42,314 nt of DNA, from positions 1 through 42,314 of the forward strand of contig JAGAEQ010000080.1 of the NCBI GenBank assembly GCA_017613015.1, written 5' to 3'. Below, piece after piece: positions 26,758 through 34,638 of the stretch (position 1 is the stretch's first letter; each line of letters begins with the position of its first letter). The translations under genes were made by a program, and so were the position numbers. The notes beneath the pieces are model-generated. The model did no database searches. It worked only from the letters and a program-made list of their open reading frames with translations, and had not been told where the DNA came from. The DNA is from Bacteroidales bacterium (GTDB lineage Bacteria > Bacteroidota > Bacteroidia > Bacteroidales > WCHB1-69).

Positions 26758-28464
26758 CTACTTTTTCACCACTTGACGCACTTGGCAGCCTGCGTTGCCG
26801 GAAAGCAGCAGCCAATAGGTTCCAGCCGGAAAGGCTTGCAGGTCCAAAGTGATTTCCGTTTGGTCCACGACACGGCGGAGAAGACGTTTTCCGGAGGCGT
26901 CGTACACATACAGCCAGGCCCCCACCCCTTCCGGATGGGCGGTAATGCGGACCGGACCCTCCGTCGGGTTGGGCGAACAGTCAAACGACAGCCGCTCCGA
27001 AAGTGGCAGGGAGGCACCGCCTTTCAGCAAACGATAGGCCTTTTCGTAATCGGGAACACCGTATCCCAAAGTGTCGTTCCAAGCTGGGTAGGTGTGCGCG
27101 CTCTGACGCACCGCTTCCATCACTTCCACCGCCGTTTTTTCCGGAAACGCCTGCCACAGACAAGCCGTCAGACCGGCATTGAGCGGCGAGGCAAAGGAAG
27201 TGCCGTTGCCTGGAAGAATCTCGTCCTTCTCATCGCAATGCATGGTGCCCCAACCCACCGAGGCGATATCGGGTTTTTTCCAGAATGAAATTCCCCGGGA
27301 ACTGAAATCAGCAGTCAGCGAATCCGTATTCATGGCGGCGATACACAAGACCTCGGGAGCGTCGGAGGGAACGCCGTAGAAACGCCAGGTATTCTTCCCT
27401 TCGTTTCCGGCCGCCACATTGACAATGCAGCCCTTGTGCGTCATTTTTCCGGCGGCGATGGAAGCCACGCTGCGGGTTCCGGACAAATCCGTCCAGTAGT
27501 GGTTCTGCTCCTTAGTGTCAAAAGTGGTGTAGCCCAAGGAGGAATTGACCACATCCGCACCGGCGCTGTCGGCGTATTCCGCACCGGCCACCCAAAAATA
27601 TTCCTCTATACGGTCCTCATAAGCGGACACTTCCGTGCGAATCAGCAGGTAATCGGCATCCGGAGCACTCCCAATGTACTGGTACGGCTCCTTGACCGCC
27701 ATAATGGACAACACCTTCTGTCCGTGGGTTTCCGTCACGGAAAAAAAGTCAGAATCCGCCGCCAAAGTGACGTCCTTCACCGCACGCAAACGGCCTTCCT
27801 GCCGGAAAGCGGAAAAGCGTTCCAGAGAATCCACCCGGGCAAAACCGCCATCCAGCACCGCCACGAGCATGCCGTTTCCCGTATACTGCCTGCGATGCAG
27901 AAACAATCCGTTCAGACAGGCCAGCTGCGGGGCCGTAGCGCCCCAATAGTCCAAATCCCCCGTGGTGTCCGGCTCATCTTCCGTCAAACGGCGCATGCCG
28001 CGTTGCGGCTGTGAGGACGCTATCAGCGTGGAGCCTGTCCATTCCGCATACAGACTGTCCGGAACCTTGTGGAGCGCATACACGCCCCTCACCCAGGGAA
28101 AGACCTCCACCTTCCGCCAAAGCGAATCCGGGACGCCCAAGGTGTCAAAACTTCCTAAAACCACGTAATTGAACCATTTGGACGAGGTCAGCACGCGCAG
28201 GGAAGTGTCAATGCGGCGCAATGTGTCCAAATAGGCGGGATGTACCGGAATATCCTCGTAGGTAACCGGAATATGGAAACGCTGCCGTTTCTCCAAAGCC
28301 CGTTGGGAGAGAAAACGCAAGGGCTGCGACAGCGGATAGGTCAGGGTATCCTTCCCTTCCAACACCACCACCCGCGCATCCGGCGCGGAAACCGCCGCTT
28401 CCTGCTGCGCCTGCGCGCGAAGGCCCAGGCAAAGCGCCAAACCGAACAAAATCCAGCGTTTCAT
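26758..28464 (-). CDS. Secreted S8 subtilisin-like protease with T9SS sorting domain
   Basis: The 568-residue protein has a signal peptide (MKRWILFGLALCLGLRAQAQ), a propeptide-like region, and a subtilisin (S8) domain (about 195-470). The catalytic triad is Asp205 (VAVLDGG), His247 (ETHGQKV) and Ser423 (NGTSFASP), with the oxyanion Asn354 (AAGNEG). The last 85 or so residues (from FDCSPNPTEGPVRI to GNAGCQVRQVVKK) are a type A T9SS C-terminal domain, so it is predicted to cross the outer membrane through T9SS and be released or surface-attached. It is thus a likely substrate of the secretion machinery encoded elsewhere in this window. Its ATG lies three bases after the EF-hand gene stop, implying tight operon coupling. 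The substrate is unknown. Confidence 0.93.
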   Translation of the reverse strand: MKRWILFGLALCLGLRAQAQQEAAVSAPDARVVVLEGKDTLTYPLSQPLRFLSQRALEKRQRFHIPVTYEDIPVHPAYLDTLRRIDTSLRVLTSSKWFNYVVLGSFDTLGVPDSLWRKVEVFPWVRGVYALHKVPDSLYAEWTGSTLIASSQPQRGMRRLTEDEPDTTGDLDYWGATAPQLACLNGLFLHRRQYTGNGMLVAVLDGGFARVDSLERFSAFRQEGRLRAVKDVTLAADSDFFSVTETHGQKVLSIMAVKEPYQYIGSAPDADYLLIRTEVSAYEDRIEEYFWVAGAEYADSAGADVVNSSLGYTTFDTKEQNHYWTDLSGTRSVASIAAGKMTHKGCIVNVAAGNEGKNTWRFYGVPSDAPEVLCIAAMNTDSLTADFSSRGISFWKKPDIASVGWGTMHCDEKDEILPGNGTSFASPLNAGLTACLWQAFPEKTAVEVMEAVRQSAHTYPAWNDTLGYGVPDYEKAYRLLKGGASLPLSERLSFDCSPNPTEGPVRITAHPEGVGAWLYVYDASGKRLLRRVVDQTEITLDLQAFPAGTYWLLLSGNAGCQVRQVVKK

Positions 28465-28467
28465 GGC

Positions 28468-30744
28468 CTAACGAAAACGCAAGCCCATAAAGGACAAGCA
28501 GTTGGTAAAATACAAAACAGCAAATACCGCCGCTATGAACAGCACCAGCATCAGCACCTTCGCCCAAACGGGAACGCCCTTGCGGGCAAATGGGTCTGAC
28601 AAGGCGGGGAAGGATGCGATTTTGGTCAAAGTGGGGCCGAACACAATGTTCACCAAGACTTTGGCATTGACCGCCCATCCGTTGGCGTTCAGCAAGGGAG
28701 CCAAATCGCGTTTGCGGAGCTTCAACCAGGCCAGCAGCATGGAAGGGCCGGAAATAATCAGCATCAGGGCGACAAACACCCCAATCATTTTATACCATTT
28801 CAACTTGAAGAAAGCGGTCAGCAAATCAAGCATGAAGCCGCAAATGGTGCCCAAGGCCATACCCAAAACGGCAAAAAGACCGAGGAACTTGCTGATGTCA
28901 AAGGCCTGCTTTGTTTTGGCTGCCGGAGAAAGCACCGGCTGGGCGGCCGCCGAATCCGCCGGGGTTTCCGACAGCTGCGTTCCCGCGTTCGAGATTTTGG
29001 AGGTCATTTCGGAAGTGACCTGGTTGTCCTTTTCCGAAGCGAACTTGCTGATCTGCTCGTTCACAAAACGGCCCATTTTACGGTAGGGCGACCAGAACGC
29101 TTGGCGCACACTGATGGGGTTGTCTATGATTTTCACCACCGTGGCGTCCCAATCCAAACCGCTGCGGTCGTAGAAAATGGCGTTTTTCCCTTCGCGCAGG
29201 TCGTCAATGTCCCCGTCGGTCATGGCCGCCACAATGGTCATGGTCTCGTTCTTGCTCTTGGAACGGCACTCGCAATAAATCAGGAACATGCCGCTCAAGG
29301 CCGCCATAAGGTTGTGTTTCGGCATGTCGGTCACTTTCATGCACAAATCGCAACTGCGCTGGTCGATATACAGGGTGCCCGCCTGAAAAATGGCCTTCAC
29401 CCCTTTGTCCCGGCTGTAAAAATCGGAAAAAGTGATGAAATTTTTCAGCAAAACGTAAAAATCCCGGTAATAATGCAGCAATTTGTCCACCTCATGGATG
29501 TCGTTGGCCGCCGTCTCCAAGGCCTTGTCCTGCGCAATCAGGCTGCGCAAGGCGTCCTGTCGCCCTTGCTGCAACGCCTCTTGCAGCAAACCGGCGTCCA
29601 AACCTTCCACTTCGCCTCCTTTTTTCGCGGCCAACCATTCCTCATAGGGGCGGAAACGCGCTTTCTCCTGCTTCCACTCGGCTTCTGCCAGCGACGCATG
29701 CTGCGGGAACTCCACATCCAACACCTCTTGCTTGAAAACGAAAAAAGCCTGCTCCCAGGCCGGATTCCATCCGCCCTGCAAGGGCAGTTCCCCATCCTTG
29801 CGCACACGGGCCAAAGGATAAGAGGCGATTTCCTCCATGCGTTCCGTCAGGTTGTCCCGCACAATCCCCTCCAAAGCGGTCAAAGAAACATCCAAGGTAG
29901 GGACAGCCTCTTCGTTGAATGCGGCGAAACGGCAACGGATGTAATAGTCCTCCACCTTTTCCCGGACCGCCTGATAAGCCGCATAGGCCTCCGCCGTCCG
30001 TTCGCCATAGGGAAGCGTCCCGTTTTCGGACGAAGCCAGGGCCTTCCATTCGACAAACTCCCGGCAATGGGTGAAAAAGGCCTCCAACTGCTCCTCCTGC
30101 ACGCCGGGCTCCCCGCTACGGTCGGGCACACTCCCCTCCACCTGCATGCAGGCGGCGACCAAAGCGGCCAAGGTCTCATCCCCGCAGGTCTGTCCGGTGA
30201 TGACCCCGTCGCCATTGAAGCGGGTCTGGGCAAAAATCGCCAGCATGTCCGCCGTATCGGCCACCGAAATCTCATCCCTCTCCTGATTCAGATAGGAAAG
30301 CACCTGACGGGCAGAGGCGTACAGCCGCATTCCCGCTTCGTTCTCCTGATTGATGGCCGACAGGGGCAAACGGTCTTCCTGCTTCAGCAGGTCATCGGGG
30401 TTCTTCAACACGGAAGTGAGCCAGGATGCGGTCGCAAGTATTTCGTTCACACGGATTTTTCCATCGTAATCAGCATCCATTAGCTGCAAGGTGTGCTCGT
30501 CGATTTCCAGTCCCTTGACCGGACAGCTCAACACCGTCCACATTTTCTGGTCCAACTCGCCCAGATGGGCAATGTCCTCTCCGGAGGTGATACTGACCCG
30601 GGTGGCGCCGCCCACATTGGCGAATTTCCAGTTATAGCCGGTTTTGCCCGCCACAAGGCTTAAGGCTTTGCTTACTTTTTTTGGAGTCATTTTATGTTGT
30701 TTTTCGTATGGTTTTTCTGTCATCTCACCCTTCCTCTCCGCCAT
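28468..30744 (-). CDS. EF-hand-containing large membrane protein of unknown function
   Basis: The 758-residue protein has no signal peptide. Near the N-terminus is a perfect EF-hand loop, DADYDGKIRVNE (90-101), with Asp at 1, 3 and 5, Gly at 6 and Glu at 12. A degenerate second loop (FNGDGVITG) lies near 176. A long, mostly helical middle with many Glu and Gln residues follows, and a conserved-looking block near 450-560 contains paired Cys (DQRSCDLCMKV, CECRS). The last 150 residues hold about three hydrophobic segments, the final one near the C-terminus. This suggests a cytoplasmic Ca2+-responsive body anchored in the inner membrane. I recognise no named family beyond the EF-hand. Starts at 30744, 30723 and 30690 are all possible. 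It precedes the subtilase by three bases. Confidence 0.82.
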   Translation of the reverse strand: MAERKGEMTEKPYEKQHKMTPKKVSKALSLVAGKTGYNWKFANVGGATRVSITSGEDIAHLGELDQKMWTVLSCPVKGLEIDEHTLQLMDADYDGKIRVNEILATASWLTSVLKNPDDLLKQEDRLPLSAINQENEAGMRLYASARQVLSYLNQERDEISVADTADMLAIFAQTRFNGDGVITGQTCGDETLAALVAACMQVEGSVPDRSGEPGVQEEQLEAFFTHCREFVEWKALASSENGTLPYGERTAEAYAAYQAVREKVEDYYIRCRFAAFNEEAVPTLDVSLTALEGIVRDNLTERMEEIASYPLARVRKDGELPLQGGWNPAWEQAFFVFKQEVLDVEFPQHASLAEAEWKQEKARFRPYEEWLAAKKGGEVEGLDAGLLQEALQQGRQDALRSLIAQDKALETAANDIHEVDKLLHYYRDFYVLLKNFITFSDFYSRDKGVKAIFQAGTLYIDQRSCDLCMKVTDMPKHNLMAALSGMFLIYCECRSKSKNETMTIVAAMTDGDIDDLREGKNAIFYDRSGLDWDATVVKIIDNPISVRQAFWSPYRKMGRFVNEQISKFASEKDNQVTSEMTSKISNAGTQLSETPADSAAAQPVLSPAAKTKQAFDISKFLGLFAVLGMALGTICGFMLDLLTAFFKLKWYKMIGVFVALMLIISGPSMLLAWLKLRKRDLAPLLNANGWAVNAKVLVNIVFGPTLTKIASFPALSDPFARKGVPVWAKVLMLVLFIAAVFAVLYFTNCLSFMGLRFR

Positions 30745-30867
30745 GCGCCCTCCGCAGGCATTTCCTCTCCCCCTCCCTCCCGGAAGGAAGGATGCGGGCT
30801 GCCGTGTCCAAGCGATGAAAACCTGGCTTCACGGAAGTTGCATGGGCGAATCCGCCGAATGAATCCG

Positions 30868-30875
30868 CAAATTTA
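30868..30875 (-). promoter_or_regulatory. -7 promoter box for the EF-hand/subtilase operon
   Basis: TAAATTTG on the minus strand matches TAnnTTTG. TTG lies exactly 10 bases upstream (30888-30886), and TTTTTGG lies about 19-20 bases upstream as a conventional -33 element. It gives a leader of about 115 bases or more. Confidence 0.55.
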
Positions 30876-30951
30876 CAAAATTCCGCAACACCCGCCAAAA
30901 AATGGGAAAAATAATTTCTCCCCGCCCCGCACTCCCTGCCGGAAAAAAGAC

Positions 30952-30959
30952 TACTTTTG
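30952..30959 (+). promoter_or_regulatory. -7 promoter box for the flippase gene
   Basis: TACTTTTG matches TAnnTTTG, 25 bases before ATG 30985. It is divergent from the box at 30868-30875, with about 75 bases between the two. Confidence 0.6.
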
Positions 30960-30984
30960 CAACTTTCACTTCAAAAAGCACAAG

Positions 30985-32493
30985 ATGGGCAATCTGAAAA
31001 AACTGCTGGGAGAATCCGTCATCTACGGCGTGAGCAGCATCATCGGACGTTTTCTGAACTACTTGCTGGTTCCTTTGTACACCTATAAAATCGCCGCATC
31101 CTCAGGCGGATACGGCCTTGTCACCAACATTTACGCCTACACGGCGCTGCTGCTGGTGCTGCTAACCTTTGGCATGGAAACCACCTTTTTCTATTTCGCC
31201 AACCGGCAGCAGGACAAGGACCCCGGGCGCATTTTCTCCACGGCCTTAGGCAGCGTGGGCTGCGTAGCCCTGCTGTTTGTGCTGCTCTGTTTCGGCTTCA
31301 CCGGATCCATCGCCTCCGCCCTGCACTACGAGACGCATCCCGAATTCATCCGCATTATGGCCGCCGTGGTCGGACTGGACGCTTTTCAGGCCATACTGTT
31401 CGCCAAACTGCGTTTTGAACACAAAGCCTGGAAATTCGCCCTGCTCAAACTGGCGTTCATCGTAGGCAACATCGGACTCAACCTCTTTATTTTCCTGCTT
31501 GCGCCGGCACTCTCCGCAAGCCACCCCGCATGGATGGCATGGTACCGCCCTGACTATCAGGTGGGCTATATCTTTGTAGTGAACCTAATCTGCACCGCCA
31601 GTGTCACTTTCGGCTTCCTTCCGGAACTGAAGAGCCTGCGCCACGGCATCGACTTCCCGCTACTGAAACAAATGCTGAAATACACCTGGCCGCTGCTGCT
31701 GATGGGCATCATCGGCATACTGAACCAAGTGGCCGACAAAATCTGCTACCGCTTTCTCGTGCCGGGGGCGGAAGGGGACGTGCAGTTAGGCATCTACGGC
31801 GCCTGCGTGAAAATCGCCATGATTATGGCCATGATCACCCAAGCCTTCCGCTACGCCTACGAGCCCTTCGTTTTCGGAGAGAAAAAAGGGAAGCAAAGCA
31901 AAGACGACCAGGCCGCCGTCATGAAATACTTCGTGATGTTCACCCTTTTCGCCTTTTTAGTGGTGGTCCTATACCTTGACATTCTGAAATACATTATCAA
32001 AAGGGATTACTGGGATGGCCTGCGTGCTGTGCCCGTGGTCATGATAGCGGAGATTTTCATGGGCATTTACTTCAACCTGTCCTTCTGGTACAAACAGACG
32101 GAAAAGACCTGGTGGGGCGCCATTTTTTCAGGTTTGGGATGCATTGTCCTGCTGGCCATCAACTTCCTGTTTGTCCCCAAATACGGATACATGGCCTGCG
32201 CCTGGGGCGGATTGGCCGGATATGGTGTCTGCATGCTGCTCTCCTTCGTGGCGGGACTGCTGCTGCAAAACAAGGAGCCTTACAAAGCCTACATCGTGCG
32301 CTATCCCCTGAAATCCATCTTCGCCTACTTCACCTTAGCCATGCTGCTTTACGGCCTCAGCACGTGGCTGCACCCGCAAGGCACCGGTTTGACCCTCGCG
32401 TTCAACACCCTGCTGCTGTTAGTGTACATGACCGCTATCTGCTACGGGGAACGGGAGCTGTTGAAACGCTTGCTCCACCGCAGAAAAAACTGA
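30985..32493 (+). CDS. Polysaccharide flippase, Wzx/MATE-like (MOP superfamily)
   Basis: The 502-residue polytopic protein has about 14 hydrophobic segments and an N-terminus typical of oligosaccharide flippases (MGNLKKLLGESVIYGVSSIIGRFLNYLLVPLYT). It belongs to the polysaccharide biosynthesis/MATE branch of the MOP superfamily and likely flips lipid-linked glycans for LPS, capsule or glycoprotein assembly across the inner membrane. The substrate cannot be read from the sequence, and no glycosyltransferases are nearby, so it is not in a polysaccharide locus. The frame is open upstream to about 30694, but ATG 30985 fits the family start and the promoter. A strong terminator 30 bases after the stop ends this single-gene unit. 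Confidence 0.9.
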   Translation: MGNLKKLLGESVIYGVSSIIGRFLNYLLVPLYTYKIAASSGGYGLVTNIYAYTALLLVLLTFGMETTFFYFANRQQDKDPGRIFSTALGSVGCVALLFVLLCFGFTGSIASALHYETHPEFIRIMAAVVGLDAFQAILFAKLRFEHKAWKFALLKLAFIVGNIGLNLFIFLLAPALSASHPAWMAWYRPDYQVGYIFVVNLICTASVTFGFLPELKSLRHGIDFPLLKQMLKYTWPLLLMGIIGILNQVADKICYRFLVPGAEGDVQLGIYGACVKIAMIMAMITQAFRYAYEPFVFGEKKGKQSKDDQAAVMKYFVMFTLFAFLVVVLYLDILKYIIKRDYWDGLRAVPVVMIAEIFMGIYFNLSFWYKQTEKTWWGAIFSGLGCIVLLAINFLFVPKYGYMACAWGGLAGYGVCMLLSFVAGLLLQNKEPYKAYIVRYPLKSIFAYFTLAMLLYGLSTWLHPQGTGLTLAFNTLLLLVYMTAICYGERELLKRLLHRRKN

Positions 32494-32568: not shown

Positions 32569-34605
32569 CTATTTCACAATGATGAACTCCACACGGCGGT
32601 TGTGCTGACGTCCTTCATCCGTATCGTTGGTGTCGATGGGGCGGGTTTTGCCGTAGCCCTTGGAGGTCATGCGGCTGCGCTCAATGCCCTTCTCCACCAG
32701 ATAGTCCACCGCAGTTTTGGCGCGGCTCTCGGACAACGTCTGGTTATAGGCGTCCGTACCCATGTTATCCGTATGTCCGGCGATAATCACCTTCACCTGG
32801 GGGTTGCGGGTCATAAAGTCGGCCACCCTGTCCAAACGCTCTGCCGCCACGCTGCCCTGCAAAGAGGACTTGTCGAAGTCGAACTCGATGTTCTCCAAAC
32901 CTTCCGGTATGCGGGAACCGTCCGATTCCAAATCAATGACAATCTCCTTGTTCTGGAAACCGGAGGAATCCGGAATGTCGAAATCTTCTTCACGCGCAAT
33001 ATAGCCCGGAGCGGACACCTTGATGTGGTAATGGTGACCCGCAGGCATGGACATCAGGAATTTGCCCGTATTTTCATTTGTTTCAAAATCACCGATTTTG
33101 CGGTTGGAATCCACATCATAGAGCTCAATGGAGGCAGCCAGGGGACTGTGGCTGTCCTTGTCACGGGTCAGTCCGTTCAGCAGGGTCATGTGGTGCGCCG
33201 GCATGGCTTTCTCCTTCACTTCGCTCTCCTCCTCGTAAAGGTCATCGTCCGCCAACAGGTTCTCTTCCGTGGCAGCCACAAACACCTTATCAGACTTGAA
33301 GGCAATGCAATAAATGTCCTCCTCCCCGAAACCGTTCGGCTGGGCGGAAGCGTAATAGGCGTTCTTGCCGTTGGCCGTAATCACAAAGGAAATGTCGTCA
33401 CCCGGGGTGTTGATGGGCAAGCCCAGATTGCGGGGCTTGGTCCATTTGCCGTTTTCCAAAGTTGTCACATAAATGTCGAAACCGCCCATTCCGTCATGTC
33501 CTCTGGAACTGAAATACAATGTTTTTCCATCAGGATGGGCAAAAACGGTAATCTCGTCATCCGGGGTATTGACCACATTGCCAAGGTTCTCCACATTTTT
33601 CCATTTACCCTTCTCGTCTTTGGTGACTTTGTAAATGTCGTGTCCGCCAAAGCCCATGTCGCTGCGATCGGAGCAGAAATAAATGGTGTTTCCATCGTAG
33701 GAATAGGAGGCGGAAGTCTCATGCGCCTTGGAGTTCACGCACCTCGGAAGGCGTTTGGCGCAACCAAAGGAAGTCCCCTTCAATTCGGACTCGTACAGGT
33801 CGCCGCCGCGCTTATCCTTATAAAGAATCACCTTGCGCCCGTCGTTGGACACGCCCTGCACAGCCATGTGTCCACGGAAATTGGCGCCCAAGGTCAGCAC
33901 CGCCTTTTGCCACGCGGTGTCCCGGCTGGAACGGTAAATCTTCTCCACGTATTTGCCGTCGGAGGCGTAGCCCCGGTTCTGGTTGCGTTTCGTCGTGCGG
34001 CGGGAGGTGAAGAACAACAGGCTGTCATCCGCGGAAACGGCCGGGCCGTACTCGTCATACTTCCCATTGACCGTGGTGTCCAGAATGTATATTTTGCAGG
34101 GAATCTCCCCTCTTTTCAGCAGCATTCTGCCGTTCTCGCACTCCTTGATGCGCTGGTTGGCCTTGAGGTTGCCCTCGCGGGTCACGCCCGGAGTGGAAAG
34201 GTAGCGCCGGTAATAGCGGATGGCAGGCACAAACTCATACCGCATCTGGTGCGCACAGCCTTTGTAGTAAATCAGATCCACAGCCACCAAAGAATCCAGT
34301 CCATACGCCGTTTCCGCATAGCTGACGGCTTCCGACAGCTGGCTCAGGTGTTCGTAGCAGCTGGCGATTTCGTAGTTCAGTTCCGCGTTTTGGGGATTGA
34401 ACTGCTGGGCTTTCAGCAAGAAATTCACAGCGGTGCGGTAATCGCCCGCCTTTAGAATCTTTTCACCCATTTTCTTGTTTTTCACCGCCGATTTGAATTC
34501 CCTCTTCGTGTTGTTCGGGAAATTGGCTTGGCGGAACTCCACATTCTGCGCAACCAATCCGCAGAGAATCATTTGGAAAAACAATATAAACAAACTCTTT
34601 CTCAT
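32569..34605 (-). CDS. porE: PorE-like OmpA-family T9SS protein (TPR, beta-propeller, CRD, OmpA)
   Basis: The 678-residue protein has a signal peptide (MRKSLFILFFQMILCGLVAQ), TPR repeats (about 40-155), PD40/WD40-like propeller repeats (about 185-420; DGNTIYFCSDR, DGKTLYFSSRGHDGMGGFDIYV), a carboxypeptidase-regulatory-like fold (about 475-560) and a C-terminal OmpA peptidoglycan-binding domain (about 565-678; IIAGHTDNMGTDAYNQTLSESRA...RRVEFIIVK). This order and length match P. gingivalis PorE (PG1058), a T9SS component thought to tie the outer-membrane machinery to peptidoglycan. OmpA-propeller paralogues also exist in Bacteroidota, so a non-T9SS role is possible. An in-frame ATG at 34626 would lengthen the signal by seven residues. 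A TPR protein precedes it by 33 bases, probably in one transcript. Confidence 0.88.
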   Translation of the reverse strand: MRKSLFILFFQMILCGLVAQNVEFRQANFPNNTKREFKSAVKNKKMGEKILKAGDYRTAVNFLLKAQQFNPQNAELNYEIASCYEHLSQLSEAVSYAETAYGLDSLVAVDLIYYKGCAHQMRYEFVPAIRYYRRYLSTPGVTREGNLKANQRIKECENGRMLLKRGEIPCKIYILDTTVNGKYDEYGPAVSADDSLLFFTSRRTTKRNQNRGYASDGKYVEKIYRSSRDTAWQKAVLTLGANFRGHMAVQGVSNDGRKVILYKDKRGGDLYESELKGTSFGCAKRLPRCVNSKAHETSASYSYDGNTIYFCSDRSDMGFGGHDIYKVTKDEKGKWKNVENLGNVVNTPDDEITVFAHPDGKTLYFSSRGHDGMGGFDIYVTTLENGKWTKPRNLGLPINTPGDDISFVITANGKNAYYASAQPNGFGEEDIYCIAFKSDKVFVAATEENLLADDDLYEEESEVKEKAMPAHHMTLLNGLTRDKDSHSPLAASIELYDVDSNRKIGDFETNENTGKFLMSMPAGHHYHIKVSAPGYIAREEDFDIPDSSGFQNKEIVIDLESDGSRIPEGLENIEFDFDKSSLQGSVAAERLDRVADFMTRNPQVKVIIAGHTDNMGTDAYNQTLSESRAKTAVDYLVEKGIERSRMTSKGYGKTRPIDTNDTDEGRQHNRRVEFIIVK

Positions 34606-34638
34606 CTGTTTGAAATATTTATGCATTACTCTGTTTTT

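Follow-up and report, generated by a model that had tools for sequence, protein, structure and literature searches.

Among the closest described systems is EfhP (PA4107) of Pseudomonas aeruginosa, an inner-membrane EF-hand protein for which a Ca2+-responsive role is proposed (PMC4053335) and which is described as having one N-terminal transmembrane (TM) segment, residues 13-32, and EF-hands predicted to be periplasmic. The same paper names CasA, calerythrin, CabC and CabB as bacterial EF-hand proteins. Bacterial Ca2+-binding motifs are listed in a review (PMC10574481), whose reference list cites work on the Dx[DN]xDG motif in new contexts.

The stretch of DNA analysed here in its whole length of 42,314 nucleotides (the window), from a Bacteroidales bacterium, encodes a protein that has neither a single N-terminal TM segment nor EF-hands predicted to be periplasmic. 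An earlier note had presented this protein as an undescribed EF-hand membrane protein coupled to a T9SS-exported protease. The description was apt, as no Pfam or NCBIfam model matched the full-length protein and an EF-hand-like domain appeared both in the structural model and in the searches. The coupling did not hold as a general rule.

The gene and its family

The features of the locus are collected in Table 1. The length of 758 residues given in the earlier note is correct for the open reading frame, while the protein itself probably has 740 residues and starts at Met19, because two homologues from the same genus begin exactly there and align with it without gaps. Residues 1-36 are largely missing from the other members in the 95-member alignment. 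The listed reading frame overlaps, in its part 30690-30744, a divergent MATE-like open reading frame (30694-32493), and both probably start further in, the EF-hand gene at Met19 and the MATE-like transporter at MGNLKK. The EF-hand gene is present as a single copy in its genome, which is 79.6% complete. In a simple scan, promoter-like sites were at chance level (2 found, 2.2 expected), and 15 terminator-like sites were found against 6.6 (sd 3.1) in shuffled sequences.

Table 1. Coordinates of the EF-hand gene, its predicted parts and the adjoining protease gene in the window
Feature	Position	Strand	Basis or remark
EF-hand membrane protein gene	28468..30744	minus	ATG reading frame, 758 codons; probable true start 30690
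EF-hand pair A (residues 51-113), pseudo-EF and canonical loop	30406..30594	minus	model pLDDT 90; VIA-align over model residues 15-77
Canonical Ca2+-binding loop DADYDGKIRVNE (residues 90-101)	30442..30477	minus	ligand positions conserved
EF-hand pair B (residues 175-243), loops FNGDGVIT and DRSGEPGV	30016..30222	minus	VIA-align over model residues 139-207
Mostly beta domain (residues 438-545; 454-540 in the full-length model), CDLC 465-468, C491/C493	29110..29433	minus	model and conservation
TM1 (residues 617-647)	28804..28896	minus	model and hydrophobicity
TM2 and family signature ISGPSMLLAWLKLRKRDLAPLLNANGWAVN...FG.TLT (residues 655-715)	28600..28782	minus	conservation in 95 members
TM3 (residues 726-746)	28507..28569	minus	model and hydrophobicity
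Spacer of three bases, EF-hand stop to protease start	28465..28467	minus	TAG GCC ATG
S8 subtilase, 568 aa, signal-like N-terminus, T9SS sorting domain	26758..28464	minus	local neighbour

The EF-hand membrane protein belongs to a real, conserved, widespread and unnamed family. A sequence search of the PDB with the window protein gave nothing at E < 0.8, and no paper on the family was found among the open-licence PMC papers searched. With the window genome included, homologues were present in 29 of 295 genomes of the order, in 16 of 99 genomes of the family to which the bacterium belongs (two of them fragments) and in 6 of 395 genomes of the phylum sample; in a second class, that of genome G687, they were found in 13 of 57. 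A scan of GTDB contigs with the alignment gave at least 580 relatives among the 593 pattern stretches listed. The best 80 of these were retained, and 79 of the 80 carry titles naming Bacteroidota-type organisms; the same scan with the single window protein as the query gave no relatives. The 136 homologue loci and the 95 alignment rows include duplicates, that is, the same contig from two collections (L076 and L191, for example), and one locus, L201, ends at the contig edge. A narrower alignment of 56 members comprised the window protein and 55 of the 80 named loci, after an 80% identity cut and a minimum length of 640.

In the class of G687, which is outside the sampled Bacteroidota, loci L191-L193 group together as a single clade, separate from L194-L198, the deep branches of the same class, a position in the tree that suggests transfer between phyla. 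In addition, a fragment with 43% identity over 146 residues was found on plasmid pBY3 of Aeromonas salmonicida (NZ_CP060033.1, L131 1697-2125), and the family therefore has relatives in or near Gammaproteobacteria. The fragment is unannotated; the plasmid is conjugative and carries tet(Y) and an IS91-like element close by.

The canonical loop and the predicted structure

The textbook Ca2+ loop noted earlier at residues 90-101 was confirmed. It has acidic or other oxygen ligands at positions 1, 3 and 5 and E/D at position 12, the pattern of an EF-hand loop, and in all 56 aligned members position 1 was D, position 3 D or N, position 5 D and position 12 E or D. Because the ligand positions are conserved across these 56 members, the loop is, as judged from the alignment, not a chance motif. 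All four positions were retained in 94 of the 95 members, which span at least two classes and include outgroups, a proportion that hardly changed among the non-identical rows (88 of 89) or among the rows with less than 70% mutual identity (67 of 68). The sole exception was the outgroup L200, in which position 3 was lost.

Pair A, which contains this loop, was present in all 95 members and pair B was absent in five. A degenerate second loop had also been reported earlier, and such a loop exists, but it belongs to a separate second EF-hand pair, pair B, in which N-G-D at residues 177-179 was conserved in 56/56 members and Gly180 in 55/56, while the first ligand position was mostly R or K rather than an acidic residue.

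The model of the N-domain (residues 37-245) had a pLDDT of 90, and the predicted helix 83-89, strand 96-98 and helix 99-112 would form a helix-loop-helix whose loop contains a short strand. Approximately 45 of the best 50 rows obtained with this model in Foldseek were EF-hand proteins by title (best E 0.076, probability 0.23), as were all 50 rows from VIA-align (best Z 4.5, rmsd 4.3 over 54), which covered two segments corresponding to residues 51-113 and 175-243 of the protein. Each of these structural matches is weak, and it is the uniformity of the EF-hand rows that argues for the predicted fold. Sequence models gave a similar picture: Pfam EF-hand_7 matched 49 of the 56 member N-domains with a best E of 3.6e-6, the window N-domain matched only EF-hand_5 (E 0.1, 12.6 bits against a cut-off of 25.9), and the N-domain profile retrieved 16 PDB sequences, EF-hand or dockerin by title, all with E > 0.1. 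We infer that the protein binds Ca2+. Work on the Dx[DN]xDG motif in new contexts calls for caution, to which the predicted helix-loop-helix provides a partial answer. Loop conservation alone is no proof of sensing, since the Ca2+ could be structural or the loop could bind Mg2+ or Mn2+.

The order of the remaining domains was read from the sequence and from a full-length model with a pLDDT of 83 and a pTM of 0.67. In the model, a helical part (residues 247-437) is followed by the mainly beta domain, a long helix (546-590) and a disordered linker (589-616) ahead of the membrane helices. The C-terminal membrane segments of the earlier note were recovered as three hydrophobic segments, which coincide with the model helices 617-647, 650-676 and 726-746. 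Residues 655-715 are among the most conserved parts of the protein; in the 95 members, 22 of the 61 columns are at least 90% conserved, and the segment after TM2 reads RKR-x-L-A-P-x-L-N-A-N-G-W-A-x-N. In 55 of 56 members, the window protein included, the first 60 residues contained no hydrophobic segment. Topogenic signals in membrane proteins follow the positive-inside rule, and because a run of Lys and Arg follows TM2, the N-domain with its EF-hands is predicted to face the cytosol.

The Cys pairs pointed out earlier are conserved without being universal: C74, C468, C491 and C493 were each present in 87 of the 95 members and C465 in 80, with T, L, F, S or I in the other 15. A fold search with the whole protein gave no convincing match: the best E was 0.38, and the VIA-align match with Z 5.4 covered a single long helix. 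Residues 483-542 gave weak Tudor/SH3-like rows with Z about 3. A PHROGs search gave nothing above noise.

The adjoining protease and other neighbours

The gap of three bases to a T9SS-sorted subtilase was found as the earlier note had it. The protease matched PF00082 (Peptidase_S8) with E 3e-27 and has D-H-S motifs, LDGG from residue 204, THG from 246 and GTSFASP from 421. Its sorting domain scored 31.7 bits with TIGR04183, above the cut-off of 23, and 22.7 bits with PF18962, below the cut-off of 27.

When all open reading frames were searched in all 136 homologue loci, some of which are short, so that both flanks are not always visible, an S8-like reading frame adjoined the EF-hand gene in only two, G722 and G711, both from the genus of the window. 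A third, in L174, was weak (17.8 bits) and more than 3 kb away. In G722 the protease starts 2 nt after the stop of the EF-hand gene, and G711 has the same junction, so that three of the four genomes of the genus carry a tight pair with gaps of 2-3 nt. The flanking MATE gene is common to all three pairs, which may for this reason represent one event. G722 and G711 also share a 569-aa reading frame 18 nt upstream; in G711 it encodes an aldo/keto reductase that carries ferredoxin-type domains. In the fourth genome of the genus, G698 (L167 8640-10964), the homologue is preceded at a distance of 112 nt by the gene for a T9SS-sorted M1 peptidase, and the best S8 match sits on another contig; this second exported peptidase beside a homologue in the same genus is perhaps due to chance.

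The distribution of the secretion system was compared with that of the EF-hand gene. S8 proteins were matched in 99 of 99 genomes of the family, against 16 with the EF-hand gene. SprA was over the cut-off in 32 of 34 homologue-bearing genomes as compared with approximately 277-278 of the 295 genomes of the order, so there was no enrichment. The EF-hand gene also occurred where SprA was not found, namely in the carrier G126 and in the carriers of the second class (0/13); there the blank alone is no proof of absence, but the same SprA model matched 278 of the 295 genomes of the order. Conserved linkage to genes for T9SS substrates was likewise not seen across the 136 loci, and Por_Secre_tail was absent from the 25 commonest of 101 families (76 same-strand neighbours). 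The neighbourhood survey that the earlier note had proposed for protease co-occurrence thus turned up many homologue loci with no protease beside them. A general link to the T9SS was rejected on the two S8 neighbours, the lack of SprA enrichment and the result in the second class. The link to the protease is at most a property of one genus, and in the window the protease is a local neighbour of the gene rather than a regular partner of the family.

Clustering of the neighbours gave no partner gene for the family as a whole, only repeats at the level of subgroups. In six rumen loci (L069 7117-8001 and related) the genes in front of the homologue encode a metallophosphatase and an outer-membrane-like protein, and in another subgroup a TetR gene recurs beside it, together with genes that we take to be an SDR and a pseudouridine-synthase-like protein. 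Many of the neighbours are housekeeping genes. VTC-domain and DUF4956 genes directly precede the homologue in L202 (5330-6782) and were seen only in this lineage; in L203 (5404-6856), genes of like length and N-terminus occupy this place. At 32569-34626 the window itself encodes an OmpA/PD40/TPR protein that resembles the NCBIfam models CHU_0125 (301.7 bits, cut-off 620) and PorE (229 bits, cut-off 600), with scores far under both cut-offs.

Possible modes of action and known systems

We propose, with even confidence for and against, that the protein is a stand-alone, membrane-anchored and Ca2+-responsive inner-membrane protein that faces the cytosol and acts on its own conserved membrane module. 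The large cytosolic part would consist of the two EF-hand pairs, the helical domain and the Cys-containing beta domain, anchored by the three C-terminal TM helices with the near-invariant segment between TM2 and TM3. Ca2+ binding at the single canonical loop would change the conformation of pair A, and the helical and beta domains would relay this signal to the membrane module and so determine its state. The module is the likely effector and may serve in conductance or transport, or as a scaffold in the membrane. No partner gene would be needed. A bolder version, which we regard as distinctly unlikely, is that the family represents a class of Ca2+-gated membrane protein not previously described in bacteria. 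A double EF-hand sensor in the cytosol would be joined to a self-contained module of three TM segments, in which the near-invariant R-N-L-A-P-x-L-N/D-A-N-G-W-A-x-N would be the gated element, either a re-entrant loop or a membrane-lipid site. If this were true, a complete Ca2+ sensor-effector would be encoded by one gene, found throughout Bacteroidota and in one or more further classes.

A serious rival, possible if somewhat doubtful, is that Ca2+ is a constitutive, structural ligand of the EF-hand domain and that the protein works as a transporter, an enzyme or a scaffold that Ca2+ does not regulate. A single canonical loop in a very large, otherwise conserved protein would fit this reading, as would the beta domain and TM2 signature, which are conserved as strongly. 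Against it, pair A is kept even where pair B is lost, which is as consistent with sensing as with structure. The DxDxDG loop might also be a relic of the fold or a site for another divalent metal, with the Cys cluster as the real metal site. The conservation of C465, C468, C491 and C493 lends this some weight, but the loop is better conserved than any of the cysteines and C465 varies, making this explanation improbable.

The patchy occurrence within the order and the family, the L191-L193 clade apart from the deep branches of its own class and the plasmid fragment all recall a mobile, defence-like or stress effector, self-contained and membrane-active on a trigger, and 7 of 26 members gave weak PADLOC matches to LeoBC, the best with E 6.5e-4. 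However, these may reflect generic helices, the window protein had no PADLOC match, no member was found in 50,697 phage records or confirmed in a scan of viral contigs, and many neighbours have housekeeping roles. We consider such an effector very improbable. Least probable of all is that a Ca2+-sensing membrane protein controls whether the T9SS protease, translated immediately after it, is exported or activated. The short gaps in the window and its two genus mates and the M1 peptidase in the fourth genome of the genus speak for this control, but the S8 neighbour is confined to that genus, the pairs may go back to one event, SprA is unenriched in carriers and was not found in those of the second class, and cytosolic EF-hands, as predicted, would sit away from an exported protease. 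For the family at large, the T9SS idea may be dropped.

The reading as a stand-alone Ca2+-responsive protein makes the family a directly testable candidate Ca2+ sensor: its loop is almost invariant, the sensor part is predicted to be cytosolic, and it carries a conserved membrane module of its own. To our knowledge, few membrane effectors with an identified sensor are available in bacterial Ca2+ signalling. Segments 51-113 and 175-243 aligned to calmodulin, NCS-1, S100 and centrin chains of the calmodulin/neuronal calcium sensor superfamily, but with weak scores, and the window protein has one canonical loop within a large membrane protein. It would share with CasA, calerythrin, CabC and CabB the character of a bacterial EF-hand Ca2+ binder; we know of no membrane architecture in those four like that of the present family. 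The likeness to EfhP is that of a bacterial inner-membrane EF-hand protein with a proposed Ca2+-responsive role. Compared with the description of EfhP, the window protein differs in that its TM segments are C-terminal (residues 617-746) and its EF-hands are predicted to be cytosolic, and its family has in addition a large helical part, a Cys-containing beta domain and a conserved TM2 signature.
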